A DNA stretch of 40,558 bases from Nanobdellota archaeon (GTDB lineage: Archaea > Nanobdellota > Nanobdellia > Parvarchaeales > Parvarchaeaceae), in contig JAJYZA010000006.1 of assembly GCA_021800365.1 (NCBI GenBank), positions 1 to 40,558 of the forward strand, written 5' to 3'. This document shows positions 5,413-32,340 of this stretch, one piece after another; position 1 is the first letter of the stretch, and the number at the start of each line of letters is the position of its first letter. The translations under genes and the position numbers were made by a program. A model generated the notes under the pieces. The model did not search any database, was not told the DNA's origin, and saw only the letters and a program-made list of their open reading frames with translations.

Positions 5413-5418
5413 GTTAGG

Positions 5419-6414: not shown

Positions 6415-6435
6415 TTCGGGTTGTCTTGTTTTCGT

Positions 6436-7560: not shown

Positions 7561-7621
7561 TTTTATTAAATTAAAGCATTTAGCACAATAAGTTTAAATT
7601 CATTGAAATCAACATAAAATT

Positions 7622-8287: not shown

Positions 8288-8391
8288 TTTTTACCGCAAA
8301 CCACTATCTAATGATTTATATGTTATTATGAGATGTTTTGCACTATGCACAATAATAAATATCTTTAAGAATATTCAAATAAATAATTAAT

Positions 8392-9480: not shown

Positions 9481-9492
9481 AGTTAAAATAGA

Positions 9493-9498
9493 TATATA
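9493..9498 (+). promoter_or_regulatory. TATA box of the second GT4 gene
   Basis: TATATA is centred about 27 bases before the ATG at 9523, in the 42-base gap after the preceding gene's stop codon. Confidence 0.5.
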
Positions 9499-9522
9499 AC
9501 AGAAGCTATGTAGGTATTATAT

Positions 9523-10707
9523 ATGAACAAAAAACTACAAGTGGCCTTAACAGATATCCAACTAAGAGAAACGAATGCTGGCGGACAACGAGTAGTAAAA
9601 ACTTTGGCGATGGATTTACATAAGTATTATAAAATTATCCACATAGGCTACCCAATCTCTGTAAGTAAAGTGTCTGAGGTTTATCCGTATAAGAATAAAA
9701 CAAAGAAGTTGAAACGCAGTAGTCTACTTAAATCTGCGCTTATTAAAAGACTCATAAAATATTTATTTCACAGAATAAATATATTAAGTAACGGATTTTT
9801 TATTAGAAATAACGTATATGCTGATATTGTTATATCAAATAGTAATCATGATGACTTAATATTATTAAATAATTCTAAATTTCACCTAGATTATAAAGCG
9901 GGGATTTTTATTAATCACGATCCGTATTTTAAGTTTGGTAAACTCTACCCAGACCGTTTAATAAAAGATAAGCCATTTAAAATAATTGCATTAAACTCTA
10001 TAGACTATAAGAACCTTATTCAAAAATATGGTAAAGCTAATGTATCACTTATACACAATGGGATAGAAATTAAAAATAAAAATTTTGATATTAAAAAAAG
10101 ACTACGTGCTTTAAAACATAAACAAAGGTTAATAGTAAGTATCGGTAGATTAAATGAAACGCAAAAAAAACTATCGATTGCAATAAAAGCGCTTCGGAAA
10201 CTTATAAAACTAGACAAAAATATATTGTTCGTAATTGCTGGGACGGGCGATGCTGCTAATTTATATACAAAATTAATATCAAAATATAACTTAAAAAATA
10301 ATGTAAAGCTACTCGGTTTTATAACTCAAAAAGAAAAAGAGAAATTGCTTACTTCTGCCGATTTAGTTTTACAGCCATCAGCGAAAGAAGCGTTCAGCAT
10401 AGCTACATTAGAGGCTTTAGCCTACGGAAATATTGTTTTAACAACCGAAAATAATGGCTCGGCTGATATAATAAAAGACAAAAAAAATGGGTTCTTAACA
10501 GATTTGTCTGAAGAGGCCATAGGAAAAAATATAATGCAAATATTGAATCTATCGAAAAATAAAAAATACTCTATACAAAAAAATGCATTTTATAGTGCAC
10601 GGAAATTTTCTACAGAAAAAATGCTTAGTGCTTATCATAAAGTAATAACTGAACTAAAAAATCGTATAAAATTAAGCGCGCCAACAAAAAATATGCCAAC
10701 ACTTTAA
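9523..10707 (+). CDS. GT4-family glycosyltransferase
   Basis: GT-B fold glycosyltransferase of 394 residues with a complete domain plan. The N-terminal acceptor half has TDIQLRETNAGGQRVVKTLA, where the Gly-Gly loop precedes the first helix. The donor half has VSLIHNGIE, LIVSIGRLNETQKKLS, LFVIAGTGDA, VKLLGFIT, and SAKEAFSIATLEALAYGNIV with the E-x7-E pair. It follows another GT4 gene and precedes a third, so the three probably add successive sugars to one glycan (inference). Extremely AT-rich coding. Confidence 0.9.
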   Translation: MNKKLQVALTDIQLRETNAGGQRVVKTLAMDLHKYYKIIHIGYPISVSKVSEVYPYKNKTKKLKRSSLLKSALIKRLIKYLFHRINILSNGFFIRNNVYADIVISNSNHDDLILLNNSKFHLDYKAGIFINHDPYFKFGKLYPDRLIKDKPFKIIALNSIDYKNLIQKYGKANVSLIHNGIEIKNKNFDIKKRLRALKHKQRLIVSIGRLNETQKKLSIAIKALRKLIKLDKNILFVIAGTGDAANLYTKLISKYNLKNNVKLLGFITQKEKEKLLTSADLVLQPSAKEAFSIATLEALAYGNIVLTTENNGSADIIKDKKNGFLTDLSEEAIGKNIMQILNLSKNKKYSIQKNAFYSARKFSTEKMLSAYHKVITELKNRIKLSAPTKNMPTL

Positions 10708-13367: not shown

Positions 13368-13802
13368 TTAACCTCCACGTAATTTATTCGTTTCTTTTCT
13401 ACTTGCGTTGACTGCACCTGCCATCAAGCTAAGCCCTAAGGCTTTTTGTAAGTATGTCTTGTTACTATAATTTACGTAATTTACCCGATATTTTGAGTTA
13501 CCTGGTGTCTGAGAATAATAGAAAGTAACGTCCAGTAAAATTTCGTAGCAAGCGCGTTTTCCGTCTTTGATCCTAATCACCTCTATATCATAACTATAGG
13601 CGCTTGGACCGTCCTCCTTTGTCTCTCGGAATAAAATCTCTTCGACATAAACTTCTTTCTGCAATAAGCTGTCTATTCCATCTGTAGCTACCGTTCTAAA
13701 ACACCTCTGTAGACCACCGACAAAACGTTCTATTTCGCCGAGAACGTCTTCTGCACAGAGCAAGCTTTCCTCCAATCTACTAAGTCTAATGTCATTCTGC
13801 AT
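13368..13802 (-). CDS. Unknown 144-residue protein upstream of hisS
   Basis: No family recognised. The N-terminal 40 residues look helical (DIRLSRLEESLLCAEDVL). The middle (about residues 45-110) alternates polar and hydrophobic residues as in a beta-rich fold, and a Lys/Arg/Gly-rich tail ends the protein. It has Cys at 16, 34 and 84 but no metal-binding pattern. It overlaps the winged-helix gene by 11 bases and is followed six bases later by hisS, so the three probably form one transcription unit. Coupling by overlap suggests that it works with the winged-helix protein (inference). Confidence 0.65.
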   Translation of the reverse strand: MQNDIRLSRLEESLLCAEDVLGEIERFVGGLQRCFRTVATDGIDSLLQKEVYVEEILFRETKEDGPSAYSYDIEVIRIKDGKRACYEILLDVTFYYSQTPGNSKYRVNYVNYSNKTYLQKALGLSLMAGAVNASRKETNKLRGG

Positions 13803-14384: not shown

Positions 14385-15359
14385 ATGATAATCTCAAGAA
14401 CGCCCGTAAGGATTAGCTTCTTCGGGGGCGGCACAGATTTTAGGGATTTTTATACTAGATCCTTCGGCGCGGTATTGTCTACGGCTATCAAAAAATATAT
14501 CTATGTGGCTGTAAACACAAAATTCGATGATAACATACGAGTGAGCTATTCAGAGACTGAAAATGTTGACTCACTAGATAAAATAAAACATGACTTAGTA
14601 CGGGAGTGCATGCGCGATTGTAAGATTGACAAGAAAGTAGAAATCGTGACGATAGCCGACATACCTGGCCATGGAAGCGGGTTGGGCTCTTCTAGTTCAC
14701 TTACTGTTGGGTTGTTGAATGCTTTAGATGCTTATACAAATAACCAACGATCGGCAGCTATGCTTGCAAAAGAAGCGTGTCGTATCGAAATCGAAGTTCT
14801 TAAAAACCCTATAGGAAAACAAGACCAGTACATTGCAGCTTTCGGTGGTTTTCGGTACATAAAATTTTTTCCTGATGAAAAGGTGAGCGTAGAACCGATT
14901 GTGCTCTCTGACAACACTTTTGAAGAACTGAAAAACAATTTAATATCGTTTTATATCCCAGGTTTAAGAGCAAGTACAGAGATATTAAGCGATCAAAAGA
15001 AGAACATTTCTGAAAGGATACAGGTACTAGAAAAGATGCGTGACCAAGCGGAGGAGGGCAGAGATTTACTGAAAGATGGGGATATAAGCGCATTTGGAAG
15101 TCTTCTGGACCAGGCTTGGAAGCTGAAAAGTTCCTTAAGCAGCAAGATATCTACATCTACAATAAATGAATATTACGCTACTGGTCTCAAAGCTGGTGCC
15201 ATGGGCGGAAAACTAAGTGGTGCTGGTGGCTCAGGTTTCCTTACTTTTTATTGTGAAAAAGAATGGCAGAAAAAGTTAAGAGATGCTCTTTCTGGCCTTA
15301 AAGAGATGGATATAGATTTTGAACCGGAAGGGACGAAAATTTTATACAGTGATCACTAA
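14385..15359 (+). CDS. GHMP-family sugar kinase, HddA-like
   Basis: A 324-residue GHMP kinase with intact family motifs: GGGTD at residues 14-18, PGHGSGLGSSSS at 94-105, GKQDQYIAAFGG, and GKLSGAGGSGFLTF in the C-terminal part. Proteins of this type phosphorylate sugars such as D-glycero-D-manno-heptose 7-phosphate at the anomeric carbon. No heptose isomerase, phosphatase or heptose nucleotidyltransferase is seen beside it, so the substrate is open. It is the paralogue of the gene at 995-1972, in opposite orientation. The pair flanks the 12.4-kb segment with the glycan cassette and hisS. A leaderless start is supported by the TATA box 25 bases upstream. Confidence 0.87.
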   Translation: MIISRTPVRISFFGGGTDFRDFYTRSFGAVLSTAIKKYIYVAVNTKFDDNIRVSYSETENVDSLDKIKHDLVRECMRDCKIDKKVEIVTIADIPGHGSGLGSSSSLTVGLLNALDAYTNNQRSAAMLAKEACRIEIEVLKNPIGKQDQYIAAFGGFRYIKFFPDEKVSVEPIVLSDNTFEELKNNLISFYIPGLRASTEILSDQKKNISERIQVLEKMRDQAEEGRDLLKDGDISAFGSLLDQAWKLKSSLSSKISTSTINEYYATGLKAGAMGGKLSGAGGSGFLTFYCEKEWQKKLRDALSGLKEMDIDFEPEGTKILYSDH

Positions 15360-15435: not shown

Positions 15436-16449
15436 ATGCGCGAGATTCTTATACGATCTAGGGCACCTTTAAGAATAAGCTTTGCCGGCGGCGGGACTGA
15501 TATAAAAGAATATTACGAATCCCGCGGGGGGGCCGTAATATCTGCGACTATAGCTAAATACGACTATGTGACGCTACGCCCTCGTGAAGATGATTTATTT
15601 AGGATCCGCGAAGAAAGCTTTGGGATAGATTATTCCGGCAGCATCCACACTAGGCCGGAAAATCACGAAAAATCCAGATTTTTCAATGCTATAATGGATC
15701 ATTTCTCACCGGAGACGGGCTTTGACATAATAACACACAGCGATGTAGTGTACGGTTCTGGTTTGGGTTCTTCGTCAACCATGGTGGTGGCACTTGTAGG
15801 CGCTTTCAATGCTTGGTTAAACTTGAACCTAAGTAACTATGAGATAGCCGAAACCGCCTATAAGATAGAACGCCAGGATCTTGCTATTGAAGGCGGGAAG
15901 CAAGACCAATATGCAGCAACGTTCGGTGGGTTTAATTTCATGGAATTCTCAAAATCACAGGTAGTAGTGAACCAGATGCGCCTGAAGAAAAGCACTATAT
16001 ACGACCTGCAATTCCGCGCTCTGTTAGTCAATACCGGCTCTACACGAATATCTAGTCAAATAATAAAAAGACAAAAGATGCGCCTTTCCAGCGAGAAGGT
16101 TCTAAAGCATTACAGAGAATTGAAGCGATTGGCCGTAGAAATAAAAAATAAGCTGTATAAAGATGAACTAGACGACTTGGGACCGATTCTTACAGAAGAA
16201 TGGGAGCACAAAAAGATGTTATCGCCCGGGATCTCAAACAAAAATATAGAAAATATATTTACTATAGCGAAAAGAAACGGGTCTGTTGGAGGCAAACTTT
16301 TAGGTGCTGGTGGCGGTGGATATGCACTTCTATTGACGAATGAGGAAAACAGGCATAAACTAATTTCTGCGCTTTCAAAACATAAATATGAAGTAACTAA
16401 CGTTGAATTTGTACCTAGCGGGTTGGAATCGTGGATAAGGCGCGTCTAA
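15436..16449 (+). CDS. GHMP-family sugar kinase, HddA-like, third copy
   Basis: A 337-residue GHMP kinase, more distant from the other two than they are from each other. The motifs are GGGTDIKEYY (residues 18-27), YGSGLGSSSTM (about 110-120), EGGKQDQYAATFGG and GKLLGAGGGGYALL. It probably uses a different or longer substrate. It begins 76 bases after the preceding kinase and has its own TATA-like TTATTAAAT (15408-15416) about 25 bases before the ATG. Convergent with the SpoVR operon. Confidence 0.87.
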   Translation: MREILIRSRAPLRISFAGGGTDIKEYYESRGGAVISATIAKYDYVTLRPREDDLFRIREESFGIDYSGSIHTRPENHEKSRFFNAIMDHFSPETGFDIITHSDVVYGSGLGSSSTMVVALVGAFNAWLNLNLSNYEIAETAYKIERQDLAIEGGKQDQYAATFGGFNFMEFSKSQVVVNQMRLKKSTIYDLQFRALLVNTGSTRISSQIIKRQKMRLSSEKVLKHYRELKRLAVEIKNKLYKDELDDLGPILTEEWEHKKMLSPGISNKNIENIFTIAKRNGSVGGKLLGAGGGGYALLLTNEENRHKLISALSKHKYEVTNVEFVPSGLESWIRRV

Positions 16450-16622: not shown

Positions 16623-18230
16623 TTATTCCGATTCGGATTTCTCTTCTAAATCAAATCTCGGTCCGCTGCCATCCTCTATCTTTTCTACTTTTTTTCCACC
16701 GACTTCGACATAGAGTATTAGCGGCTGCCCTTTTTTGTCCATTGTTTCCAAAGAAACCGGCAAATTCAATAACTTAGATAGTCTTAATAGAGAGCGCCTA
16801 GTCATCTTGTTATTAAGACTAAACACTGCCGTAACTTCTTCTGACAATTTACTCTCTTTCTTAAGCATGTTGCTATAGCGGTTTATAAAACTTAGGTCCT
16901 GTCTGAGCGGTAGATTATCTCCGAGAAATTCGCCCTTTGGAATATAAATCATTGGCATATAGTTCTCCGTCCTTAAAAGCAATTCAAACCTCATCAAGTC
17001 CGGATCCAACTCCTCTTGCATCGTCTTTTTCATCCGATCTAAGATCCACTTTCCCCATGGACTATCTTCGACTTGCGATTTTATCAAGAACATCCTTTTT
17101 TCTATTATCTCCTCCGAAAGAGTCTTTAAGAAATCTTTATTTGCATATGAAAATATGAATTCCCAGTCTGTGTTATGCTTAACTATGTGCAGTATTTCTT
17201 CCAGGCCTTTTCCCTCATTTTTACTGTAATTACGTTTTTCCTCATCAGTTAGAAGCTCGTAGACGGGGCCATGCTTCCCTTCATTCCATCTTTTTTCTAT
17301 GTTCTGAAAAAGCCTAAAGCCCAAGAAATAAGGCATTTGTGGCTCAGATAATACATCTGCCACGGATAAGAATTTGTGTTTCATCTCCCAGCCAAGCCCC
17401 AAATCTTCTTTCGTGACCTCTTCTATATATTTATTTTCAACAAAGCTTGCAAATCCCTCATGTATTATTTTAAGTCGTGTTACCGAGATACTTAGCTGAT
17501 TTATATCATACACCATGTCGAGTATTTCTTTTTCCCAGCCATTCCAAGTCATATTGTCAAGTACGAACTTATAGACATCAAAGACGTCCTGCTTAGGAAA
17601 ATCTTTTTCTTTGCCGTAATAATCTAATTTCGGTTCTTTGTGTAAATCCTTATATATATCTACTAGACTGCTGAGTGTCTGTGTTAAGTTATAAAACTCT
17701 TCTGTTTCGTTTATGCCGATAACTTCTTCTATTTTCCTATACCTGCTGCGATATGACTCATGTTTATTGTTGTTTATTTCAAGCGTCTTGCTTAATTTAT
17801 TGTTATCTATCACATGAAGGTGACCATAAACATGCGCGATCACGCTTAATATCTCATCGCGTGTGTCGTTCTGGTTTATAAATACTTCAGTATATTCCTG
17901 ATTTTCTACCATAGCATAGAATTTGTTTCCGACTTGTTCAAAGAGCGAGTATTGCCTATATTGCATCATATTTTCATTTATTACCTTATTCTGGCCCGTA
18001 TCCCAAGTCGGAAGTGGGTTCTGCCACAGCGCTGATTTTTCGGCAAACTCTTCATTATCAAGAAATTTGAATTGCACGTTGCCGAATGACAAGCCAAGTT
18101 TTTCCACCATAAACTTAGCTATTTTATTGGCTTCCCGAGTGTATTTTTCATCTATTATGGAGCCCCTCATCGCTACTATTTTGACTTCACGTCCATTTAT
18201 CAGCAGTTTTTCAAGTGATTCGGTTTTCAT
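16623..18230 (-). CDS. spoVR: SpoVR/YcgB-family protein
   Basis: A 535-residue member of the SpoVR family, named for a Bacillus spore-cortex protein and found as YcgB in E. coli. Its biochemical function is not known. The family's metal-site-like residues are present: HVYGHLH (H133, H137, H139; usually HVYGHxxF) and IIHEGFASF (H257, E258; usually NEGWAS). LGLGWEMKHKF, PYFLGFRLF and RRSLLRL also match family patterns. A typical length is about 500-520. The last 25 residues are acidic. It starts one base after the YeaH-like gene and is the last gene of the prkA-prkA-yeaH-spoVR operon. YeaG, YeaH and YcgB homologues are likewise linked in many bacteria and some archaea. Confidence 0.9.
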   Translation of the reverse strand: MKTESLEKLLINGREVKIVAMRGSIIDEKYTREANKIAKFMVEKLGLSFGNVQFKFLDNEEFAEKSALWQNPLPTWDTGQNKVINENMMQYRQYSLFEQVGNKFYAMVENQEYTEVFINQNDTRDEILSVIAHVYGHLHVIDNNKLSKTLEINNNKHESYRSRYRKIEEVIGINETEEFYNLTQTLSSLVDIYKDLHKEPKLDYYGKEKDFPKQDVFDVYKFVLDNMTWNGWEKEILDMVYDINQLSISVTRLKIIHEGFASFVENKYIEEVTKEDLGLGWEMKHKFLSVADVLSEPQMPYFLGFRLFQNIEKRWNEGKHGPVYELLTDEEKRNYSKNEGKGLEEILHIVKHNTDWEFIFSYANKDFLKTLSEEIIEKRMFLIKSQVEDSPWGKWILDRMKKTMQEELDPDLMRFELLLRTENYMPMIYIPKGEFLGDNLPLRQDLSFINRYSNMLKKESKLSEEVTAVFSLNNKMTRRSLLRLSKLLNLPVSLETMDKKGQPLILYVEVGGKKVEKIEDGSGPRFDLEEKSESE

Positions 18231-18231
18231 A

Positions 18232-19377
18232 TTAATCCAGTAACTGATCCAGCACCTTCTTAACGTTTTGGTATGAAGCGTCGTTTCCGGATTTAACCGC
18301 TTTTATCTTTTCTTTGTCCAATGATACAAGTAAGTCATAAAATGGTTCATTGTCAGACATGTAAATCCCATTATAAAACTGGCCGCCGTTTTTCCCAGCA
18401 GTTAAGCCAACCTGCAGATAAAATAATTTTGTAAGCTTTGGAATTAGCTGTTGCAATGTGTCTTTTATCGGACTTATACTTTCTCCGTTATTGTCACCAT
18501 CCGTTATGTGCAGCACAAAAACATCTTCTTCCTCATATTTTATTCTATCCTTAAACGCCCCTTGAGAATCATATGGCTTGCCTTCCATCATCGCCAGTAT
18601 GGTCTGATATACTGGATTAAAAGCAGTGCTCCCCTCGGAAATTAACTTAAAGAAATCCTTTCTACTCTTTGTGCCTATCTCCCACGCCACATCTGTATGT
18701 GCTACAAACCGCACCTTTACGTTATTTTCGTACTTATTTCTGAGCCAAAATTCGATTAATCCGGCAATGGTCGCTGAAAATTCGGTGTATGGTGCCATGG
18801 ACCCGCTTACGTCCCTAACTATTATAAACGTAGCTGATTGATTCGGTATTGATTTCTCATGTATAAAATCATAACGCAAATCCTCATCCCTTACATTTAC
18901 TTTGAAACCATGCTGCTTTTTGAACTCTCCGGTCGCCATCTGTCTATCCAACATGGCCTCTATAGTCTTTTCCTGATTCTCGTTTATTCCATTTTCAGCT
19001 ATAAGCACCTGAAGCAGTTTTTTATTTTTCTTTCCTGGTTTGGTAAATTTTAACCCCCAGTTCTCCATAATTTGTTTTAGTCTTCTCGCATCTATACCTA
19101 CTTTGACTTTACTCTTCCCGCCCGGACCGCCCCCATTATTCGGTTCACCTTCTTCGCCTTCTCCTTCTCCATCATCGTCTCCATCTCCGTCGCCATCGCC
19201 ACCGGGGCCGCCCAGACCGCTATATGAGATACGCGGATTGATTTTGACCGGTATACTTTTTATAACTGTCTGACCGTTCATTATATCAACTATATTTTCA
19301 GAGGTGAGTATCAGGTCATCTTCTTTATCTATCCTACGCCTATACTTGTCTTCAGCATCCCCAATTTCATTACTCAT
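18232..19377 (-). CDS. YeaH-like (UPF0229) protein with VWA domain
   Basis: 381 residues. The N-terminal part (about 1-55) carries RRRIDKEDD. An acidic Gly/Asp/Glu linker follows (residues 55-88), then the UPF0229-type segment and a von Willebrand A domain. Its MIDAS metal site starts DVSGSM (D189, S191, S193), continues with STAFNP as the threonine loop (T near residue 259), and has HITDGDNNG as the third loop. In bacteria YeaH accompanies the PrkA-type kinase YeaG. VWA proteins beside AAA+ proteins commonly act as a pair in remodelling complexes, by analogy with MoxR-VWA systems. The ATG overlaps the stop of the preceding prkA-like gene in ATGA (19374-19377), so translation is probably coupled. 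Confidence 0.88.
   Translation of the reverse strand: MSNEIGDAEDKYRRRIDKEDDLILTSENIVDIMNGQTVIKSIPVKINPRISYSGLGGPGGDGDGDGDDDGEGEGEEGEPNNGGGPGGKSKVKVGIDARRLKQIMENWGLKFTKPGKKNKKLLQVLIAENGINENQEKTIEAMLDRQMATGEFKKQHGFKVNVRDEDLRYDFIHEKSIPNQSATFIIVRDVSGSMAPYTEFSATIAGLIEFWLRNKYENNVKVRFVAHTDVAWEIGTKSRKDFFKLISEGSTAFNPVYQTILAMMEGKPYDSQGAFKDRIKYEEEDVFVLHITDGDNNGESISPIKDTLQQLIPKLTKLFYLQVGLTAGKNGGQFYNGIYMSDNEPFYDLLVSLDKEKIKAVKSGNDASYQNVKKVLDQLLD
19112..19216 (-). repeat. Low-complexity Gly/Asp/Glu linker in the YeaH-like gene
   Basis: Simple-sequence coding region for alternating Gly, Asp and Glu residues, with Gly-Pro-Gly ends. It is probably a flexible hinge between the N-terminal segment and the VWA part. 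The repeated GAT/GGC-like codons make it prone to length change. Confidence 0.6.
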
Positions 19378-21215
19378 ATAAACAAACTGCCCTCTTTGTA
19401 AATCTTCAGCGCCTCGTCAACCGCCTCATCAAAATAATTAAGCTTGATTTTTAGGAAACTCGTTACATAGCGATACATCTCCGTAGTTTTATCCATGTCT
19501 TTATGCTCTTCGCCGAGAAATTCCTCATATTTACTTTCTTTTTTCACAAGGTCTTTATCTTCTCTTGCGATTATAAATCGAAATAGGTCGTCAAACTTAA
19601 CTGAATAATTCGCGATCCCTAGTGGCATTTTCATGTATCTAAAATCCTTTAATCCACTCTTTAGCAGATCTATGTCAAGATGCATACTTGCTTCTAAAAG
19701 ATGTCCCTTTTCATCTTTGAAGTCATTCTCATCCTTGTTGTTCAGCAGGTGGTTCATAAGCGATTCGACTGTACTAGTGTAATCTAAGAATTTCTCTCTA
19801 AAATAAAAAGATAAGATAGCATAATCCACATCGGCGGTCACTGCATCGACAACTTCTTTTTCTATGTAGCTCTTTATAATCTCTACAGTGTCTCCGCTAT
19901 CTATTTTATTTTCTAGATTTAAAACGTAATCTCTTACATTTGAAAAGGAAAGGTAGTTTTTTACACCGCTGAAATTGTGATTAAAATCTACTAATGTGCT
20001 TATAGATCGCGACGAAACCCCTTCAGTCCAGCCACTTTTATATTTTCCATCTTCGTCAAATATTATTTTTTTAGTCGCCAGTTCGTAATATGCAAACTTG
20101 TTATGGCCCTCCTTGGATAGATATGCATTATAACTAGGCACAAGCTTCTCTAGGAATTTCGACATCGACTGAGTCACGTTTTTCTCGAGTTCATCCAGTT
20201 TTGACGAATCGTAATAGTTCAAAAGTTCCAGAACCTCGTCTAAATCTTCGGGAAATTCGTTTATAATCTGGCTATCTATTCTAGAGAGGACATTAAACTT
20301 TGATATGTATTCTAATGCATTTGGAATTTTTTTTACGAATGGTAACCCAAAATTCTCTGCTAGGCGTTTTTCTTCTGAATATGACAGATTTCGTCGCATC
20401 TCAACTCTTATTATTCTTTCCAACAGTGGTCTGGATTCGGCTTCTGCATCGTCTGACATTGTCCTCATGAAACCTTCGTTACTATGAATTATTATTAAGC
20501 CGTCTATTGGGATATGGTTTCCTACGGTATCCGTTATATTGTTGTCATAAAGATTGCTAAGCAATTGAAATGCCTTTGGATTAATGTGTTCTACTTTTGT
20601 TTTATCCGCACTTATGGTGAGGATAGATCTATTCGCATTTTTTAAGATATTTATAAAAAATGGCGTTAATACGTTTTCCCCAAGTTCAACGACAGAAGAT
20701 TGAGGTAACAACGGTTCTAATTCTATCTTATCCGCAGTGACTAGTGTTTTCTCTAGCCTACTTTCACACTGACTGCAAATTTCTGGTCTTTTTAAGTTAC
20801 TTGCCATAGTTTCTCCAGTCTTTATTACTTCTGCCAAGCGATCTGAAAGTACTGATCTATATAGATTATATGGATTCTCATTGTATGGACATCTTGACCC
20901 ATCTATTTTAAGGGTAAGCGGCGGATTCTGTCTACAATGTCTCTTATAGGTCCTTATAACACTGTTTATAAGTTCAGTTTTCCCGCTTCCGCTTGGGCCT
21001 ATAAGGAGAAGTATCGGCACGTATCCCTGTTTTGATACATACACAGCCTGTTCAAAGGCTGCCATCAAGTTCTCTTTTACCTCTTTTACGCCAAGAAGAT
21101 CTGGAAGAATCTTTCCATTGCTTTTCTGAGAGTAAACTTTTATACTTCTCTCTATTGTCTCGGCGGTAGTCTCCTCTTTCTTTTGGGCGAGTTTTTCAAG
21201 CCCGGATTCAGTCAT
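19374..21215 (-). CDS. PrkA-type AAA+ protein (second copy)
   Basis: 613 residues, close in length to bacterial YeaG/PrkA (about 630-640). The Walker A motif GPSGSGKT is at residues 73-80. The family signature GSRCPYNENPYNLY (about 106-119) is intact, a CSQC pair lies at 147-150, and GLIIIHSNEGF is the sensor-like segment. RPLLERIIRVEMRRNLSY resembles the arginine-finger region. Bacterial PrkA was reported as a serine protein kinase with a C-terminal kinase-like domain, and that activity is debated. A kinase function here is only by homology. It lies eight bases after the first copy and overlaps the YeaH-like gene by four, in the middle of the operon. Confidence 0.88.
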   Translation of the reverse strand: MTESGLEKLAQKKEETTAETIERSIKVYSQKSNGKILPDLLGVKEVKENLMAAFEQAVYVSKQGYVPILLLIGPSGSGKTELINSVIRTYKRHCRQNPPLTLKIDGSRCPYNENPYNLYRSVLSDRLAEVIKTGETMASNLKRPEICSQCESRLEKTLVTADKIELEPLLPQSSVVELGENVLTPFFINILKNANRSILTISADKTKVEHINPKAFQLLSNLYDNNITDTVGNHIPIDGLIIIHSNEGFMRTMSDDAEAESRPLLERIIRVEMRRNLSYSEEKRLAENFGLPFVKKIPNALEYISKFNVLSRIDSQIINEFPEDLDEVLELLNYYDSSKLDELEKNVTQSMSKFLEKLVPSYNAYLSKEGHNKFAYYELATKKIIFDEDGKYKSGWTEGVSSRSISTLVDFNHNFSGVKNYLSFSNVRDYVLNLENKIDSGDTVEIIKSYIEKEVVDAVTADVDYAILSFYFREKFLDYTSTVESLMNHLLNNKDENDFKDEKGHLLEASMHLDIDLLKSGLKDFRYMKMPLGIANYSVKFDDLFRFIIAREDKDLVKKESKYEEFLGEEHKDMDKTTEMYRYVTSFLKIKLNYFDEAVDEALKIYKEGSLFI

Positions 21216-21223
21216 AAGGAGCC

Positions 21224-23434
21224 TTAACTTTTATTCGTAAACAGGTTATAGGCCACTCTTGCGCATTGATCGCAATAGCCGATTCCCTTTAACTTTTTGA
21301 TTATCCTATCCTGATCCAGCTCCGTTGACATGCTAGCGACCGTCGTGCTGATTTTTTCCACCACTGCCTTTACTATCTCGGGGTGTCTTTGGATTATAGT
21401 CGGTGTAAGATCTTTAACAAGTTCATCAACGCTTTTCTTGTTGTCAAACATCGCCCTATCATTTATTATGCCATATATGCTCTCGCGCATTAGATCACTT
21501 CTTATATTGGCTCTTTTCTCTAGGTCGATCACAAAGGAGTAATCCAATGCCTGCGTCACACCGAACATTGGAACTCTAGCGCTTTTGTCCTCTTTTTTGC
21601 TGGCACCCAGCTTCTCCATGTAATATACGTTTATGACATACTTATTGACTAGGCCATATACCTTTTCCTCACCGTATTCTACAAGTGAAACATCCGTTTT
21701 CATGAATTGCTTTATTTCGCCGTAAGCATCGCTTATTATAGTCGCACCATCTCCATGTTCCCTAGGCTGGAGTCTTGTTTTTGTCTCGGAGGATAGGTCC
21801 TCTAAGGTGTTCAAGAAGTCTTCCAGATATTTCGTTCCGCCATCCAATACCGTTGCAAGGCACACTTTATTGTCGAGTTCCTCTTTCGGCAAACGAGCAG
21901 ATTTAACGGCCATCTCTCTGCTGAATAGAGCGTACTTGCGCAATTTATCCGGAGATTTTATTAGGTCGTCATACGGTATGCCTAGTTTTACCCCCTCTTC
22001 CAATTCAAGCAATGGCTTTTGCGTGGCTTCTCTTATTATATCCTCAAGAGAAACTTTTATCTCGGGTATAAGCATTCCATCATAAAGATCTGCTTTTTGC
22101 TTAAGTGTTATATTTTCGAACTTAGATAGGCTCGCTTCTACCCACACCCTTGCCAGCATCCTTAGGAAATGAGGTGGATAATGCACGTCTAGTTCCTTTG
22201 CTGCATCGGTATATATGTTTTCAAGAGCAGCTTCTGCGTCTGACATCTTTGTCATTGACCTAAAGACGATTATATTAAGCCTACGCAAAAGATACGGCTT
22301 CATCGTATCTGTCATAGTCTTATAATCATCCATATTGGTTGTTCCTACAATCACTGCATCAAATGACTCTTTAAAAGACGGTGAAACTTTTGTCCTCATA
22401 TCCTGGGTAAAATCAAGAAGCGTCTTTGAAACCGACGCAGACCCTTTCAATACCTCACTAAGGTGTATTATGTTCCCACGCGGTGACGGTGCAGATTGGT
22501 CCCCCAAAACGCCAAAATTATAAGCTAAGACGTTTGAATTGTCGCCCGAAAGCTCATTTAATGCCTTGTACCACATCTTTCCTCCAAAGATCCCTTTAAA
22601 GTCGACGTGCTGATCTTCAGCCATTACAACAGGTTCAGATACCACCAATACATCTGTATCCGTAGCTTTTTCTACCGACACTAAGTTCTCCAAAATACGC
22701 TGTATTCTTTCAGTATCTGGCTCTCCATCTTCGCGAAAGACATATTTCTTTAATGAATTTACTATCGTGCCTACTACCTCATCTTTTGTGGAACTTCCAA
22801 CGGTTCTCTTGTTTATTGTCGGACCCTGCCAGTATTCATTTGTACTTTCCTGCAAATTGTCTATAATGTCTTCTATGCCAGTCTTCTTACCCGGACCAAG
22901 CAGAGCCCTTTGTAGCAGATAAATCTCGTCCTGTATATTTTCAGCTAAGGTTATCTTCCTATTGCCGGTAGTACCAAGACGATTTTGTACGTCAGCAATA
23001 AAATCGCCTCTAATGTCACCAAGATCATCAAGTGCATGATTGCTACTAAGACCGTCTAAATCCAACTTAAGGAGATACTGCGTTCCTTCGTCCGTCTCAG
23101 AATAAACGCGCATGGTTTCAACAAGAGTATTCACAAAGTCACTTTTACCGGCTCCCGGTGGTGCGATTATAGTAATAATTTTGTTCCTTATATTGGGATT
23201 TCTAGCGCCGCGTTTTAACAGAGACACAAACTCGTCCGCAAAACCGCTTGAATCAAATCGCGTATTTATATTTCTTTCATCATCCTTCTGTTTTATTAAG
23301 AACTGCCACCGTCCGTCCTTCCTTCCATACCTATTTATTGCAGCTAGACCTCGCTGAAACGCATTGTAGAACACGTACGGCTTATCCTTACCGTATTCAA
23401 GAAACTCCGCTAAAGATAGCTTAGACTTTACCAT
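21224..23434 (-). CDS. PrkA-like AAA+ protein (first copy, divergent)
   Basis: 736 residues. The Walker A motif APPGAGKS is at 91-98. Later segments with family character are DVLVVSEPVVMAEDQHVDF, VIVGTTNMDDY, KPYLLRRLNIIVF and HYPPHFLRMLARVW. The C-terminus adds GYCDQCARVAYNLF with a CxxC pair (721, 724), possibly half of a metal site. It is longer and more divergent than the second copy and lacks the CPYNENPYNLY signature. Two dissimilar PrkA proteins encoded side by side suggest a hetero-oligomeric ring (inference); some haloarchaea also carry paired prkA genes. The start at 23434 has a strong Shine-Dalgarno site, which marks it as the first, leadered gene of the operon. Confidence 0.85.
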   Translation of the reverse strand: MVKSKLSLAEFLEYGKDKPYVFYNAFQRGLAAINRYGRKDGRWQFLIKQKDDERNINTRFDSSGFADEFVSLLKRGARNPNIRNKIITIIAPPGAGKSDFVNTLVETMRVYSETDEGTQYLLKLDLDGLSSNHALDDLGDIRGDFIADVQNRLGTTGNRKITLAENIQDEIYLLQRALLGPGKKTGIEDIIDNLQESTNEYWQGPTINKRTVGSSTKDEVVGTIVNSLKKYVFREDGEPDTERIQRILENLVSVEKATDTDVLVVSEPVVMAEDQHVDFKGIFGGKMWYKALNELSGDNSNVLAYNFGVLGDQSAPSPRGNIIHLSEVLKGSASVSKTLLDFTQDMRTKVSPSFKESFDAVIVGTTNMDDYKTMTDTMKPYLLRRLNIIVFRSMTKMSDAEAALENIYTDAAKELDVHYPPHFLRMLARVWVEASLSKFENITLKQKADLYDGMLIPEIKVSLEDIIREATQKPLLELEEGVKLGIPYDDLIKSPDKLRKYALFSREMAVKSARLPKEELDNKVCLATVLDGGTKYLEDFLNTLEDLSSETKTRLQPREHGDGATIISDAYGEIKQFMKTDVSLVEYGEEKVYGLVNKYVINVYYMEKLGASKKEDKSARVPMFGVTQALDYSFVIDLEKRANIRSDLMRESIYGIINDRAMFDNKKSVDELVKDLTPTIIQRHPEIVKAVVEKISTTVASMSTELDQDRIIKKLKGIGYCDQCARVAYNLFTNKS

Positions 23435-23438
23435 ATTT

Positions 23439-23448
23439 CCCCTCCCCT
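23439..23448 (-). promoter_or_regulatory. Strong Shine-Dalgarno site of the prkA operon
   Basis: AGGGGAGGGG on the minus strand ends four bases before the ATG at 23434. A leader with such a site is unusual in this window, where most first genes are leaderless. It implies translational control or high initiation for the operon. A/T-rich TATA candidates lie further upstream around 23470-23495. Confidence 0.6.
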
Positions 23449-23590
23449 ATTGACTTAATTGATTTTTTAAGTAATTACTATAATAAATACCTTTTTTTAC
23501 ATTATTTACGAAGATTTTAGCTTAAAAATTGGAATTATTCCAATTAATCGACTTTTAAAGCTTTTCTGTGCGCAGACTTGCTTTGTTGGT

Positions 23591-24041: not shown

Positions 24042-24761
24042 TTAGTGAAGTGAGCGTGTATTTAAAGTTTTTATATATGATTCCGCTTCCTTTAACTGTT
24101 CTGGTGTATTTATGCCGAACCAAAAACTTATTTTTTTAACTTTAAACTTAAATCCTTTTTCACGCAATAATTTAACTGCGTAAGTAAGAAATTTCTCACC
24201 GCTTTTTTCATCGATTGGTATCTCTTTGTAGACATCAAAGAATTCTCTCGGCATTACATATATCCCAGTGTTAGCTAAGCCCTTCCCGTTTCTTTGTTTT
24301 TCTACGATGTCCGTCACTTCCCCTAAATTGTTTGATATTAGAACACCGTAGCCGCTTACATCCGCGATTTCGAATCCAAAAACTGCCGGCTGGTTATCAT
24401 CCAAGAGTTCCCGCACGTTCAAATTTGAGATATCATCGCCCATCATGACAAGGAAAAATGGTGATTTTATCATGCCTTTCGCAGCAAACAGAGCCGCCGC
24501 TGTCCCTCTTTCCTCACCCTGTATGATGAATTTCACCTTGTAATTGTCCAATTCTCTTTTAAATTTTTTAAGGTCTCTACGGTCTACAATTACAAAAACT
24601 TCAAAACCGGCATCAATAAGCTCTTCTATTTTTCTGCTTATTATCGGCTTTCCGTTTATTTTTAGTAAAGGCTTTGGTGTAGATAGTATGATTTGATCAC
24701 TTGTGCCATTTTTCATCCGTTTTCCTGCGCCTGCGGCAAGTATCACTGCTTCTTTAACCAT
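24042..24761 (-). CDS. Sugar-1-phosphate nucleotidyltransferase, probable UDP-GlcNAc pyrophosphorylase
   Basis: A 239-residue GT-A nucleotidyltransferase: LAAGAGKRM at the start, PKPLLKINGKPII, a GEERGTAAAL base-binding segment, MMGDDI as the metal-binding aspartate motif, VDIVEKQ-like TDIVEKQRNG, and NTGIYVMP. It has no C-terminal beta-helix, so unlike GlmU it can do only the uridylyl (or thymidylyl) transfer. Acetylation would be left to the separate Gna1 next door. Its ATG overlaps the end of the mutase gene by eight bases. From context the product is most likely UDP-GlcNAc. dTDP-glucose synthesis is the alternative. Confidence 0.85.
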   Translation of the reverse strand: MVKEAVILAAGAGKRMKNGTSDQIILSTPKPLLKINGKPIISRKIEELIDAGFEVFVIVDRRDLKKFKRELDNYKVKFIIQGEERGTAAALFAAKGMIKSPFFLVMMGDDISNLNVRELLDDNQPAVFGFEIADVSGYGVLISNNLGEVTDIVEKQRNGKGLANTGIYVMPREFFDVYKEIPIDEKSGEKFLTYAVKLLREKGFKFKVKKISFWFGINTPEQLKEAESYIKTLNTRSLH

Positions 24762-26139
24762 TGTTATTTATCTCCTCCAAAACTAACTTTTCTCCCAACT
24801 CCTGAAAGGCATCGCATACCCCCTTGCTTTTACCATCTGAATTGATTCTTATTATTGGTGATGTATTTGAAGCCCTTATAAGCACCCTCCCCTGCTCATC
24901 AGATAAAAGAACGCCGTCTAGAGTGGTTAGCTTATAATCCAACCGCCTTGCTTTTTTTGCTATTTTCGATATAACTGCAAATTTTAACGTATCGCCACAT
25001 GCTATCTCTTTCATGCCACTAGTAAAATATTTGGGTATCTTCCCCACTAATTCTGATAGTTTCTTGCCGGAAGACGCGAGGATTTCTAATAATTTTAAGC
25101 TGCCAAAAATTGCATCATCAGCACAGTTTACTTCGGGAAAAGCAAGATGTCCAGAATACTGGCCTCCAAATAAAGCTTTCTGCTTCAACACTTCTTTTGC
25201 ACAGTAGCTGTGTCCTACTCTAACGATGACTGGCTCACCACCCAATTTACGTATGTAATCCCCAACGGCGGAGGAACAAGTTATGTCGTAGACGATCTTA
25301 CCACCAAGATTATCATGCAGCGCGGACTGTGCCAGTAGAGGAATTGTGACGTCCCCAGATGCGAATATTTCACCGCGCTCATCTACAAATGCAACTCTAT
25401 CGCCATCGCTATCATACCCGATACCAATATCGGCTTCTTCTGATAGCACTCGCGCCTTCAACCCCTGCAATGAAGACTCGGATGGCTCGGATGCGCGGTT
25501 CGGAAACCTGCCATCTATAGTCTCGTTTATCCAAGATGCATTGACATCAAATCTTTGCATTAGCTTTGGGACTACCGCTGAAGTAACGCTGTTACCGAAA
25601 TCAAAAACCACTTTTACTGGGCGTTTGATATGTATCTTCTTGGAGACATAATCTATGTAGTCATCGACTACACCGTTGGTCATATGGCTACTACCCTCGA
25701 TGTGCTTAAAATTCCCTCTAGCAAAGGCCTCTCTTATCTCCTCTAGACCGGTCCCTTCAGATAGGGTTATCCCATCATTTCCACTGAATTTAAACCCGTT
25801 CCATTCTGGCGGAAGATGAGATGCAGTAATCATCGTGCCACTAGTCAATCCGCGATACCATGTACCAAAATAAAGGAGTGGGGTAGGGATCTCGCCGAAG
25901 TCTACAACATTACTTCCACCGAAAAGCAGCCCGTTAACGAGAGCGTCGTGGAGCGAATTACTGCTTAGGCGAATGTCTCTTGCAACTCCTATTTGTTTAC
26001 CCGACCCATATACAGAAGCTAACGCCTTACCGATGCGTTCGGCATCACTCTCATCGATAGACTCTCCATATATACCCCGTACGTCGTAAGCTCGAAATAT
26101 ACTTTTTGAGTGGTCTTTGCCTCCTAGTTTCATCTCCAT
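24754..26139 (-). CDS. Phosphoglucosamine/phospho-N-acetylglucosamine mutase (alpha-D-phosphohexomutase family)
   Basis: 461 residues from the ATG at 26139, with the four-domain phosphohexomutase plan. IFRAYDVRGIYGE is at the start, phosphoserine loop TASHLPPEWNG (Ser near 107), magnesium loop DSDGDR (near 243-248), sugar loop GGQYSGH, and phosphate loop RASNTSP at the end. The sugar loop usually reads GE-x-SGH; here the Glu is Gln, which may affect substrate choice. The downstream Gna1 gene suggests that it works on GlcNAc-6-phosphate (inference). In-frame starts are TTG 26151, ATG 26139 and ATG 26133. A TATA-like box at 26169-26177 would start transcription near 26147, which favours 26139. 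Confidence 0.87.
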   Translation of the reverse strand: MEMKLGGKDHSKSIFRAYDVRGIYGESIDESDAERIGKALASVYGSGKQIGVARDIRLSSNSLHDALVNGLLFGGSNVVDFGEIPTPLLYFGTWYRGLTSGTMITASHLPPEWNGFKFSGNDGITLSEGTGLEEIREAFARGNFKHIEGSSHMTNGVVDDYIDYVSKKIHIKRPVKVVFDFGNSVTSAVVPKLMQRFDVNASWINETIDGRFPNRASEPSESSLQGLKARVLSEEADIGIGYDSDGDRVAFVDERGEIFASGDVTIPLLAQSALHDNLGGKIVYDITCSSAVGDYIRKLGGEPVIVRVGHSYCAKEVLKQKALFGGQYSGHLAFPEVNCADDAIFGSLKLLEILASSGKKLSELVGKIPKYFTSGMKEIACGDTLKFAVISKIAKKARRLDYKLTTLDGVLLSDEQGRVLIRASNTSPIIRINSDGKSKGVCDAFQELGEKLVLEEINNNG

Positions 26140-26187
26140 AGCTATAATCAAATTTAATAGAACCGTTCTTATATAAAAATAGCAAGA

Positions 26188-27214: not shown

Positions 27215-28621
27215 CTATTTTATATTTAAAACGAGTGAATTAGATTTTTTAGTATAATTCTTGTTATTAAACGCAAATGAGCACATTGCTGGTTTCAGAT
27301 ATATGTTGCCGACAATCCCGAGTTTGCTCTTTATTTCATACATAAGCAATATCTCATCGTTGGGCTGCAGTTCCACTTCCTTCCATATAATGTTAAGCCC
27401 AGTAGCTACCTTTGATATTCTCGCCTCTTTTGGACCGACTGCATGCACCTTAAGCGCATTCGGCGGAACAAAATCAGTTATTGTAAGAGACTTAAGTGGT
27501 TTCTTTGATACATTTCTGACCTTTAAGGCCAGTTTTACATCTACGAAGCCTTCTACAACCTTATGTTCTACGACTTCCTTGGTTATAATGACTTTACGAT
27601 TAAAATACAAGAAAACTAAGACTGCAGCCACTATTATTATAACTATTAAATAAATAGGCAGGTAAGATACCGTGTAGGACAACTCTAAAGTTTGCCCTGG
27701 TGCCAACGCAGCCAGACTAGTACTTAGAACCAGACCGGAAATCTGCGGCGAACCGAGTGAAGAATATTTTGAAGAAAGAAAAACCGAATTGAACTTACTT
27801 ATTGAAAGAGTTAGGTTCCCTTGCGAGATATTTTTATTGCCAGTATTGGTTATCGTAGTGGTCACTGTACCTCCAAAGATGCCAATATCCGAGGAAGAAC
27901 TGCTCGTATAAGCGGTGTACGGCAAAATCTCTACTAATTTAGATGCAGAACCAGAAGATTGACCACCATAATTAGTCGTAAAACTAAGGTTATAAGTGCC
28001 GGGCAAAAGGGTTTCATTTAATGGAATTGAAAAAGTAAATTCGTCAGTACCTAGATTTGTCAACACTGCAGTGCCAGAAAAAGCCGCGATCTCCGCACCG
28101 TTAGAGGCATTCAATGTATATGCGATTGGTATAACGGCATCCTGACCAAGTGCATTTATTATCGTAACGTTAAAGACCAGTGGGCTTGTTGGTTTAAGAG
28201 AGGCTGGTGCATTTAGTTTGCTTATTAGGTTCTGCACTGGCACTACTGCTGCGTATATAATCAAATTTTTCTGTACGCCATTAAGCGTATAGGATACGTT
28301 CATTATAAGATGCGAGTTTAGATAGGGCGGCTGTGTGGGGTTAAAAGAAAAAAGAACATATTGAGATTGACCGGGGGCCAATGTAAATGAAGTAGGTTTT
28401 ACGCCTATACCGGAGAAAAATGCTGAGTATTCTATTCTCATTTGTGCTACGTCTATAGTCACATTTGCAGTTTGAGTTGCATTATTGTAAAAACTTATAT
28501 TAAAAATCGAATTTGCATTACTCGGAATCGTTAGGCTTATTGATGCCGGCTGTAGCGCATTGACCGTACCTATTGATAATGCTATTAAAGATAGGACTAT
28601 TACTATGCCGATGGCTTTCAT
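27215..28621 (-). CDS. Secreted beta-domain protein with single membrane anchor
   Basis: 468 residues. Residues 1-22 form a signal peptide (IGIVIVLSLIALSIG, then VNALQ). An ectodomain of about 300 residues follows, rich in Ser, Thr, Asn and N-x-S/T sequons, with Ig-like or CARDB/NEW3-type strands (for example FSFNPTQP, LLPGTYNLSF, TTTITNTGNKNIS). A membrane segment (LIVIIIVAAVLVFLYF, about 323-338) comes next, then a basic NRKVIITKE. The last 120 residues form another beta-rich, DUF11-like domain (VKLALKVRNVSKKPLKSL) that by topology would be cytoplasmic. It may be a cell-surface or envelope scaffold, but no specific function can be read. Single gene, with tRNA-Asp downstream. Confidence 0.75.
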   Translation of the reverse strand: MKAIGIVIVLSLIALSIGTVNALQPASISLTIPSNANSIFNISFYNNATQTANVTIDVAQMRIEYSAFFSGIGVKPTSFTLAPGQSQYVLFSFNPTQPPYLNSHLIMNVSYTLNGVQKNLIIYAAVVPVQNLISKLNAPASLKPTSPLVFNVTIINALGQDAVIPIAYTLNASNGAEIAAFSGTAVLTNLGTDEFTFSIPLNETLLPGTYNLSFTTNYGGQSSGSASKLVEILPYTAYTSSSSSDIGIFGGTVTTTITNTGNKNISQGNLTLSISKFNSVFLSSKYSSLGSPQISGLVLSTSLAALAPGQTLELSYTVSYLPIYLIVIIIVAAVLVFLYFNRKVIITKEVVEHKVVEGFVDVKLALKVRNVSKKPLKSLTITDFVPPNALKVHAVGPKEARISKVATGLNIIWKEVELQPNDEILLMYEIKSKLGIVGNIYLKPAMCSFAFNNKNYTKKSNSLVLNIK

Positions 28622-29484: not shown

Positions 29485-30501
29485 TCAATTTTCCATGGAA
29501 ATAAACGGTTCTATCCGCTTACCTAGCAACTTGTCTAATTCTTTTAGCTTTTCTGGGCTCACATCGCTCGGTACAATCATTATTAGATTAAGCACGATAT
29601 CCCCGCGCTTTCCGTTCTTACCAAATAACCCACTACCTTTTATAATGATAGGCCCTTTCTCGCCTTTATTTAAAGTAATTTTTAAATTTCCCTCGGGAGT
29701 CTTGATTTCGATAGTTTTATCATTAATTATATCTCTGATGTCAACATGCAGATTTGAGATTAAATCGGTTCCGTGTATTTTAAATGTGTTATTGCCGACT
29801 ATATGAAAAACTACATACAGATCGCCGTTCCCTCTTTTTCCCTGCCCGCCGTGACCCTTTATTATTGTGTAATATCCTTCGTATACATTTTTTCTTATTG
29901 TTATCTGAATAGTATCGTTATCGTAGATGGTACCTTTCCCATTGCAACTATCACACCTTTTATCGACAATATAACCCGATCCTCCACAATTATCACAGTC
30001 AGAAACTGTTATGAACATTGAACCGAATTGCCTAGAGGACCTCCTTATCTTGCCGCTGCCACGGCATTTTGAACAGGTATGTCGCTCTTTTGCTCCGGTT
30101 CCGCCGCAATTCTTGCAGGTGACTGCACGTCTGAGAGCAATAGTCTTATAGCCTTCTCTAAAAACATCGTCTACAGTGATATTAAGATCGTATCTTAAAT
30201 CCTCCCCCTTCGAATCGAAATCCGAACCAAAACCAAAATTCCTGAAGATGTCTCCGAATCCAAAATCGAATATATCTTCGAAACCGCCAAATCCCTCATT
30301 GGTACCATTATCAGTTGAGGTGCTTTTATTTGTAATTATTCTGTAAGCCTCGTTTAATTCTTTAAACTTTTCCTCAGCACGTTTGTCTCCGGGGTTTAGA
30401 TCCGGATGATACTTCTTAGCCAACGATTTAAAAGCATGTTTTATCTCTTCAGCCGTGGCGTTTCTACTTATCCCTAAGATTTCGTAGGGGTCCTTATCCA
30501 T
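29485..30501 (-). CDS. dnaJ: Chaperone protein DnaJ (type I Hsp40)
   Basis: Co-chaperone that stimulates DnaK ATPase and delivers substrates. The J domain has KKYHPDLNPG with its HPD at about residues 31-36. A Gly/Phe region lies around 70-100. Four CxxCxGxG zinc motifs follow (CKNCGGTG, CSKCRGSG, CDNCGGSG, CDSCNGKG), and then two C-terminal substrate-binding beta domains. At 338 residues it is a little shorter than bacterial DnaJ (about 375). It lies 30 bases downstream of dnaK and is last in the grpE-dnaK-dnaJ unit. A purine-rich AGGAAGG lies well upstream of the ATG. Confidence 0.96.
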   Translation of the reverse strand: MDKDPYEILGISRNATAEEIKHAFKSLAKKYHPDLNPGDKRAEEKFKELNEAYRIITNKSTSTDNGTNEGFGGFEDIFDFGFGDIFRNFGFGSDFDSKGEDLRYDLNITVDDVFREGYKTIALRRAVTCKNCGGTGAKERHTCSKCRGSGKIRRSSRQFGSMFITVSDCDNCGGSGYIVDKRCDSCNGKGTIYDNDTIQITIRKNVYEGYYTIIKGHGGQGKRGNGDLYVVFHIVGNNTFKIHGTDLISNLHVDIRDIINDKTIEIKTPEGNLKITLNKGEKGPIIIKGSGLFGKNGKRGDIVLNLIMIVPSDVSPEKLKELDKLLGKRIEPFISMEN

Positions 30502-30531
30502 ATCTTGAGAGTACCTTCCTGTTCAAATTTC

Positions 30532-32340
30532 TTACCCGGGAGTTTCTTGATTTTTATCGTTATTGTCTTCTTTGTTTTGGTCGTTCTTCGGTGATTTATA
30601 CAACTCTGTCCCTATTTTGTTTATTAGCTCTGTAAGCTTGTCCTTGTCGTTTTTTACGGCATCAATATCCTCCTTTGCTGTATCCTCTTTTGCCTTCTTA
30701 ATCAGTTCTTCTCCAGTCTTTCTATCTTCTTCTCCAATCTTGTCCTTAAAATCGTTTAGCGTTTTTTCAAGCGAATATGCAAGAGCAGAAGTCTCATTCT
30801 TTAGCTCAATTTCCTCTTTATGTTTTGCATCCTCCGTTTCATTCTCTTTTGCAGTTTTTATCATTTTTTCTATCTGCTCTTTTGATAGTTTATTCGGCGC
30901 GGTTATAGTTATCTTCTGGCTCTTATTAGTGGCGGTGTCCTTTGCTGAGACATTTAGTATGCCATTCGCGTCTATATCAAAAGTAACCTCTATCTGCGGT
31001 ATACCGCGCGGAGCTGGGGGAACCCCTTCCAAGTTAAATGAGCCTAGGCTTATATTGTCCTTTGCCATTGGGCGCTCACCCTGCAAAACATTTATAGTAA
31101 CTACGGTCTGATAATCGTCTGCCGTAGAAAACGTCTTACTTGTCTTTATTGGAATTGTTGTATTTCTTTCTATTACGGGTGTAGCTACTCCACCGAGAGT
31201 TTCTATACTGAGGGTTAACGGAGTAACATCTAATAGGACTATATCCTTTATCTCACCGGCTAGAACCGCCCCTTGGATGGCCGCACCTATAGCTACTGCT
31301 TCCATTGGATCTACGCCGCGCTCGATTTTATTCCCGAATATATCTGACAGAAACTTCTGTACAATCGGCATTCTTGTAGGTCCCCCTATAAGTATTAGTT
31401 TGTTTATGACGTCCTTTGAAATTTTCGCATCCCTCAAAACATTATCTATCGGCTGCCTTGAGCGCTCTACGATTGGAGTTACTAAATTCTCTAGAACGGC
31501 ACGCGAAATCTTCATCTCTAAGGTTTTCGGTCCACTACTTGTTATAGTTATATATGGTAAGTTAATGTCAGTTTCTAACATTGAAGAAAGTTCTATCTTG
31601 GCTTTTTCGGCCGCATCGCGGATTCTTTGATAAGCCACTTTATCGTCTTTTAGGTCTATACCTTCTTTTGATTTAAAGTCTTTTATTATATAATCGATAA
31701 GTGCATTGTCCATGTCAACGCCACCTAGTTCTACATCTCCCGATGTTGCAAGAACTTCAAACGTTCCTCCGCTTATCTCCATTAAAGTAACATCTAGCGT
31801 TCCGCCACCTAGGTCATATACAAGTATTTTTAGTTCATTTGACTTATCCAAGCCGTATGCCATCGCAGCTGCAGTAGGCTCATTTATTATTCTTACAACC
31901 TCCAATCCAGCTATTTTCCCGGCGTCTTTAGTAGCCTGTCTCTGGTTATCATTGAAATACGCGGGTACCGTTATTACCGCCTTGTTTATACTTGTACCCA
32001 AAAAGGACTCTGCATCTCTTTTTATCTTCTGTAATATGAATGCGGATATTTGTTGTGGAGTGTATATTTTATCGTTTATCTTATAAGTGAAATCCGTCCC
32101 CATCTTCCTCTTTGCAGCAAAGATAGTGTTCGCTGGATTTGACACGGCCTGCCTTCTTGCAGGCTCCCCGACTAAAACTTCTCCCTTATTTGTGAAGGCT
32201 ACAACAGACGGGAACATCTTTCCTGCTATTGTTGCTCCTTCTGCGCTGGGTATCGTCGTAGGCTTACCTGCTATAATGACTGCCGCTTGTGAGTTAGCGG
32301 TCCCTAAATCTATTCCTATAATTTTTTCTTTTTCTGTCAT
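30532..32340 (-). CDS. dnaK: Chaperone protein DnaK (Hsp70)
   Basis: ATP-dependent Hsp70 of 602 residues. It has the phosphate-1 motif [72 protein letters not shown], the linker region [16 protein letters not shown], the substrate-binding domain with [12 protein letters not shown], and a Lys/Glu-rich, disordered tail. The ATG overlaps the grpE stop as ATGA (32337-32340), so the two are translationally coupled. The gene set is of bacterial origin in archaea generally and is absent from many hyperthermophiles. A moderate growth temperature is therefore likely (inference). Confidence 0.97.

Follow-up and report, generated by a model that had tools for sequence, protein, structure and literature searches.

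The stretch of DNA analysed here, hereafter the window, comprises 40,558 nucleotides of a Nanobdellota archaeon (contig JAJYZA010000006.1, C27 in our numbering, of assembly GCA_021800365.1) and carries on its minus strand four open reading frames (ORFs) that form one operon-like block, PrkA1-PrkA2-YeaH-SpoVR, within positions 23434-16623. The products, of 736, 613, 381 and 535 residues respectively, are two PrkA-type AAA+ proteins, a YeaH/DUF444 protein with a VWA domain and a SpoVR-family protein. The initial annotation had described four tightly spaced genes on one strand of a compact genome, and both descriptions hold: the inter-ORF spacings of 8, -4 (an ATGA overlap) and 1 bases and the total of 2,265 residues were reproduced exactly, and the host assembly, from a member of the Parvarchaeota (DPANN), measures 898,414 bases at 98% completeness. 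From this spacing, the four genes are presumably co-transcribed. The proposed family assignments were also borne out, with all four proteins above the Pfam cut-offs in the profile search, and the family identity of the module proteins is practically certain. The same annotation had treated the two PrkAs as equivalent, and this view did not survive: PrkA2 lacks the Walker B glutamate as well as the family's N-terminal segment and C-terminal CxxC. Judged from the alignment of the family, PrkA1 and PrkA2 are not equivalent, and this is the novel part of the present finding.

PrkA1 (21224..23434, minus strand, as are all features of the module) is a full-length PrkA-type AAA+ protein and the predicted ATP-hydrolysing subunit. 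Its match to AAA_PrkA (PF08298) is weak, at 30.8 bits against a cut-off of 25; in hhalign, a profile built from nine PrkA1 sequences nevertheless matches the bacterial-type PrkA profile over its full length (residues 3-734 vs 32-678, 100%, E 5e-42). PrkA1 also matches the PDB chain 9xip (E 1.5e-9). The protein retains its Walker A motif PPGAGKS with Lys97 (23141..23161), a lysine kept in every aligned PrkA that covers the site, the sensor-1 asparagine, the arginine finger and the C-terminal GYCxxC, here GYCDQC (21263..21280); the family's central cysteine cluster is missing. The Walker B region, RGNIIHLSEVLK (22445..22480), contains Glu327 by alignment. The register of this assignment is supported by the PrkA1 of another member of the genus (L229), which has a canonical Asp-Glu pair at Walker B and an AAA_5 match of 27.5 bits spanning the same region.

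PrkA2 (19374..21215) is a shortened paralogue, predicted to be an ATP-binding partner with impaired hydrolysis. It scores 57.9 bits against AAA_PrkA, with the same cut-off of 25, and its profile aligns with bacterial-type PrkA over residues 37-605 (99.5%, E 2e-22, hhalign). The Walker A motif GPSGSGKT with Lys79 (20976..20999), the sensor-1 asparagine and the arginine finger are all retained, as is the central cysteine cluster, which consists of CSQC (Cys147 and Cys150, 20766..20777, invariant in the PrkA2 clade) and its partner Cys109 (20889-20891). The Walker B strand, RSILTISADK (20601..20630), is without its glutamate; Ala203 stands in register and is followed by an invariant Asp204.

This asymmetry extends well beyond the window. 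Family positions were scored on an alignment of 43 PrkAs, whose 12 complete pairs are those in which the pattern was first noticed, and five newly fetched pairs (L224 and L226-L229) together with the completed pair of G250 were added later. In 18 of 18 complete two-PrkA modules of the phylum (11 from genomes of the window's genus, one from family f24, two from f11, two from f4 and one each from f50 and f95), the Walker B glutamate is present in one copy only, with alanine, isoleucine or aspartate in the other, and the six later pairs all fit the rule, as predicted. By comparison, every single-copy PrkA scored has the glutamate (12 bacterial-type, 54 viral and 5 DPANN sequences, of which two are repeats, L223 and L058 being one contig and L225 and L103 another). 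The central and C-terminal cysteine clusters are likewise split between the copies in the window's genus (f1) and again in f4, f50 and f95. Both clusters occur in both copies of the f11 pairs, whose second copy has aspartate for glutamate, and in both copies of the f24 pair, whose second copy is also without the glutamate. A division into a catalytic PrkA1 and a non-catalytic PrkA2 is probable.

Losses of this kind might mean simply that PrkA2 is a functionless, decaying duplicate retained through its operon position alone, a reading to which the missing catalytic glutamate, N-terminal segment and C-terminal CxxC would all lend themselves, as would the faster evolution of the gene. Yet Walker A, sensor 1, the arginine finger and the central cysteines are retained together, and the reading frame is intact in every genus genome with a complete gene. 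Further, the ratio of nonsynonymous to synonymous substitution rates (dN/dS) of PrkA2 is 0.07-0.10, and such strong purifying selection argues against decay, which is extremely improbable. Wherever an estimate of dS was possible, the ratio lies at 0.03-0.10 in all four genes, and PrkA2 has about twice the value of PrkA1; strong purifying selection thus acts on the whole module.

Of the remaining two proteins, YeaH (PF04285, UPF0229; 18232..19377) matches DUF444 at 61.5 bits (cut-off 27), as do all 17 aligned homologues at their own scores, and its metal ion-dependent adhesion site (MIDAS) pattern DxSxS-T-D is complete, comprising DVSGS with Asp189, Ser191 and Ser193 (18799..18813), Thr251 (18625-18627) and Asp293 (18499-18501), each invariant in 17 sequences. 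SpoVR (PF04293; 16623..18230) scores 85 bits against a cut-off of 27 and satisfies the family pattern of HxxxH plus EG(W/F)A. Conservation marks out a candidate metal site formed by His133 and His137 of HVYGH (17820..17834), Glu258 (17457-17459) and Glu98 (17937-17939); these four residues do not vary among 17 DPANN sequences or among 40 archaeal and bacterial ones, and Gly259 is likewise invariant. A metal site at this HxxxH...E arrangement may reasonably be inferred from the pattern. The AlphaFold2 model of SpoVR is confident, with a mean predicted local distance difference test (pLDDT) score of 86 and a predicted template modelling (pTM) score of 0.87. In the PDB, sequence searches with SpoVR and with YeaH gave no significant match.

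The distribution of the module was surveyed in samples of 371 and 279 genomes of the DPANN phylum Nanobdellota and in 15 genomes of the window's genus. SpoVR is present in 24 of the 371 phylum genomes and in 12 of the 15 genus genomes; given that three genomes of the genus lack it, the module is strongly conserved yet dispensable. The initial annotation had expected co-conservation of the parts, and this stood in one direction only. In the 279-genome sample, DUF444 and an AAA_PrkA match accompany SpoVR in all 17 genomes that bear it; the two genus members there that lack SpoVR have none of the three families. DUF444, however, occurs without SpoVR in 12 of the 279 genomes, and in five such loci examined (L129-L133) neither SpoVR nor PrkA lies nearby. 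As for gene order, PrkA1-PrkA2-YeaH-SpoVR holds throughout those genus members that carry the module and is shared by one genome of a different family, f24 (L036), a recurrence that excludes a chance arrangement; in two genus genomes the PrkA1 end of the module sits on a separate contig. Families f4, f11, f50 and f95 have the order PrkA-YeaH-SpoVR-PrkA, and f22 has a single short PrkA. Two Woesearchaeota records (L058, L103) carry a bacterial-type module with a single PrkA that groups with bacteria in the tree, which suggests that this module was acquired from bacteria separately from the two-PrkA form.

The gene combination itself is already known. A pair of neighbouring PrkA genes, always accompanied by DUF444 and SpoVR, was described as a signature of all haloarchaea, absent from other archaea (Anderson et al. 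2011, PMC3102087). The window module fits that definition, and by the published description the haloarchaeal cluster is alike in all four families; the present set, in a DPANN archaeon, is a further case outside the haloarchaea, and it extends the two-PrkA arrangement to archaea with small genomes. In two studies of Parvarchaeota genomics, neither SpoVR nor PrkA is mentioned, and haloarchaeal plasmids gave no PrkA or SpoVR match among the matches listed. The likeness to bacterial yeaG-yeaH-ycgB drawn in the initial annotation is right as to families but not as to form, because the bacterial set has one PrkA and the two-PrkA form is the haloarchaeal one (PMC3102087). In E. coli (yeaG-yeaH-ycgB) and Bacillus (prkA-yhbH-spoVR) the same three families are functionally linked and have a role in starvation or sporulation (PMC2375023, PMC4664914). 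The single bacterial PrkA has the Walker B glutamate and, usually, both cysteine clusters.

The activity of PrkA/YeaG has been in dispute for decades, with kinase, protease and remodelling ATPase as the candidates. In a serine/threonine kinase module, PrkA would phosphorylate SpoVR, YeaH or other targets, as the family name implies and as the reported in vitro activity of E. coli YeaG and the failure of its kinase-domain mutants to complement would allow (PMC4664914). However, kinase activity of purified B. anthracis PrkA was negligible, which was ascribed to the absence of a P-loop from its C-terminal domain (PMC13001217), and PF06798, the C-terminal "kinase" family of PrkA, scores on neither window PrkA in Pfam, although the corresponding region of both aligns by profile. 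PF06798 reaches 275 bits in bacterial-type PrkA, 66 in the PrkA1 of L036 and 18, below the cut-off, in the PrkA2 of L036. Since the related L036 PrkA1 still scores 66 bits, the C-terminal region of the window proteins is best regarded as present but diverged. A kinase module is improbable. A module acting as an ATP-dependent protease, the activity claimed for the B. subtilis protein, is very improbable: that report is cited in PMC13001217, in which the activity of B. anthracis PrkA disappeared upon further purification, and the window proteins have no detectable protease domain, the SpoVR motif being HxxxH and not HExxH. The purified B. anthracis protein, negligible as both kinase and protease, does oligomerise in an ATP-driven manner (PMC13001217), and E. 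coli YeaG requires its AAA+ residues in vivo, where yeaG and yeaH are functionally linked (PMC4664914).

A remodelling ATPase has parallels in known AAA+/VWA systems. The MoxR-type pairs NorQ/NorD, RavA/ViaA and CbbQ/CbbO, along with the Mg-chelatase subunits ChlI/ChlD, combine an AAA+ ATPase, a VWA partner with a MIDAS and a client with a metal site or cofactor; in sequence, however, PrkA and DUF444 belong to families of their own. ChlD has its VWA domain fused to a non-motor AAA+ part, unlike the window module, in which the VWA and AAA+ parts are on separate proteins. In Mg-chelatase, the motor role falls to one of the two AAA+ subunits, and ChlD serves as its allosteric AAA+ partner (PMC10653834, PMC3789969). 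In NorQ/NorD, metal insertion is driven by a force that the VWA partner transmits, and both the Walker B glutamate and the MIDAS are essential (PMC13036017, PMC9976466); this pair provides the best-supported analogy for the AAA+/VWA remodelling pair acting with SpoVR that had been suggested at the outset. PrkA may work as MoxR proteins do, though not classed among them.

The best overall explanation, to which we assign a probability of roughly 0.5, is that the window encodes a two-PrkA, archaeal form of the PrkA-YeaH-SpoVR operon, in which specialised paralogues form a mixed ring that remodels SpoVR. PrkA1 would be the full-length, hydrolysis-competent subunit and PrkA2 would mainly bind ATP, the two assembling as one hetero-oligomeric AAA+ ring; the mixed ring as such is somewhat favoured. 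The VWA domain of YeaH would dock on the ring, with its MIDAS holding a client, most probably either SpoVR itself or a partner of SpoVR, and the ATP cycle would remodel that client, plausibly by loading or unloading metal at the SpoVR HxxxH...E site in a manner like that of NorQ/NorD. The machine would act at growth arrest or under stress; the important stress or dormancy role put forward in the initial annotation is suggested by analogy with bacterial mutants (PMC4664914, PMC13001217). Taken in its entirety, with SpoVR as the client, this mechanism is tentative.

Against a mixed ring stands the idea that PrkA1 and PrkA2 assemble separately, each as a homo-oligomer with its own clients, and that PrkA2 serves as an adaptor or scaffold that senses ATP and not as a ring partner. 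The two proteins are very divergent and, in the tree, form separate supported clades that each include an f24 member; PrkA2 evolves about twice as fast; and gene order varies, the second PrkA following SpoVR in f4, f11, f50 and f95. However, the glutamate asymmetry and the complementary cysteine losses in two lineages are better explained by subunits that depend on each other, and the PrkA1 and PrkA2 genes are adjacent and tightly spaced in the window's genus, so that separate assemblies are rather unlikely.

Several observations nonetheless weigh against the mixed remodelling ring, or at least against its strongest form. The invariant aspartate of PrkA2, one residue beyond the lost glutamate, could permit residual slow hydrolysis, and the same is possible for the second copies of f4, f11, f50 and f95, which have an aspartate in register. 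With a pLDDT of 48, the AlphaFold prediction for PrkA2 is too poor to confirm the geometry of Walker B, whose register is consequently taken from the sequence alignment and the Asp-Glu pair of L229. A tree in which PrkA2 and the downstream copies of the other families form one clade stays compatible with the data (approximately unbiased test, p 0.41; long branches). All archaeal pairs may go back to one ancient duplication, which is neither shown nor rejected, or to several origins; given this relatedness and possible common origin, the 18 pairs represent far fewer than 18 independent events. By sequence, PrkA is not a MoxR protein, and no MoxR-family match (AAA_3/AAA_5) exceeds the Pfam cut-off in the window PrkAs. 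For no archaeal member did we find data on interactions, ATPase activity or metal content. Finally, the SpoVR model has no significant fold match in Foldseek. Its best hit, 1oz9 (E 0.36), is AQ_1354, which we take to be a YbeY-type zincin-like protein, and it is a weak lead only; 7y7o, another YbeY, ranks 17th.

A natural pair with the glutamate in one subunit only separates ATP binding from hydrolysis and yields clean predictions, namely a mixed ring, a glutamate required in PrkA1 alone and cysteine elements required in trans. More broadly, archaeal PrkA might be an obligate two-subunit AAA+ machine that combines ATP-hydrolysing and ATP-locked subunits in one ring, with the two zinc-like cysteine elements of bacterial PrkA split between them in at least two lineages and the second type of subunit found in a tailed virus as well. 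This generalisation is quite possible, if short of probable; were it true, PrkA would be a remodelling ring instead of a kinase.

The viral occurrences are numerous. PrkA-YeaH-SpoVR is present on many IMG/VR viral contigs (L143-L222), some longer than 200 kb, with examples at L185 5707-10293, L173 5681-10179 and L166 5357-10455; in L185 and L173 the module adjoins helicase, ribonucleotide reductase or PhoH genes. SpoVR is found in Thermus phages as well, and in the jumbo phage RsoM2USA the PrkA and SpoVR genes are two ORFs apart (PMC8504454). Contig L217, which has terminase and portal genes, carries at 110-9858 SpoVR followed by an archaeal-type second PrkA in which the Walker B glutamate is replaced by aspartate, the contig end truncating the upstream part. 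This PrkA is 44% identical to the f95 DPANN copy, and the same PrkA occurs in L216.

Upstream of PrkA1 in the window, a Shine-Dalgarno-like sequence, ggggaggggaaat (23435..23447), and an A+T-rich, TATA-like stretch that is a putative promoter lie within the intergenic region 23435-23590. The genes flanking the module are of other kinds (sugar-nucleotide, GHMP-kinase, glycosyltransferase and GNAT acetyltransferase genes) and differ in most members of the genus. Because these neighbours vary and are unrelated in kind, the unit comprises just the four genes. Contamination of the metagenome-assembled genome is ruled out by the diverged copies of the module that recur throughout the genus, and a role in anti-phage defence was set aside, the PADLOC matches being weak and only P-loop-sized. 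A sugar-nucleotide region surrounds the module (window 995-1972, 14385-15359, 15436-16449 and 24042-26151), with three GHMP kinases, an epimerase, a nucleotidyltransferase, a phosphomannomutase-type protein and glycosyltransferases. Elsewhere in the window, 27215-28621 (468 residues) and 13368-13802 (144 residues) are intact ORFs with no Pfam match, and genes for DnaK and DnaJ are located at 29485-32340, on the same strand as the operon and about 6 kb upstream of it.

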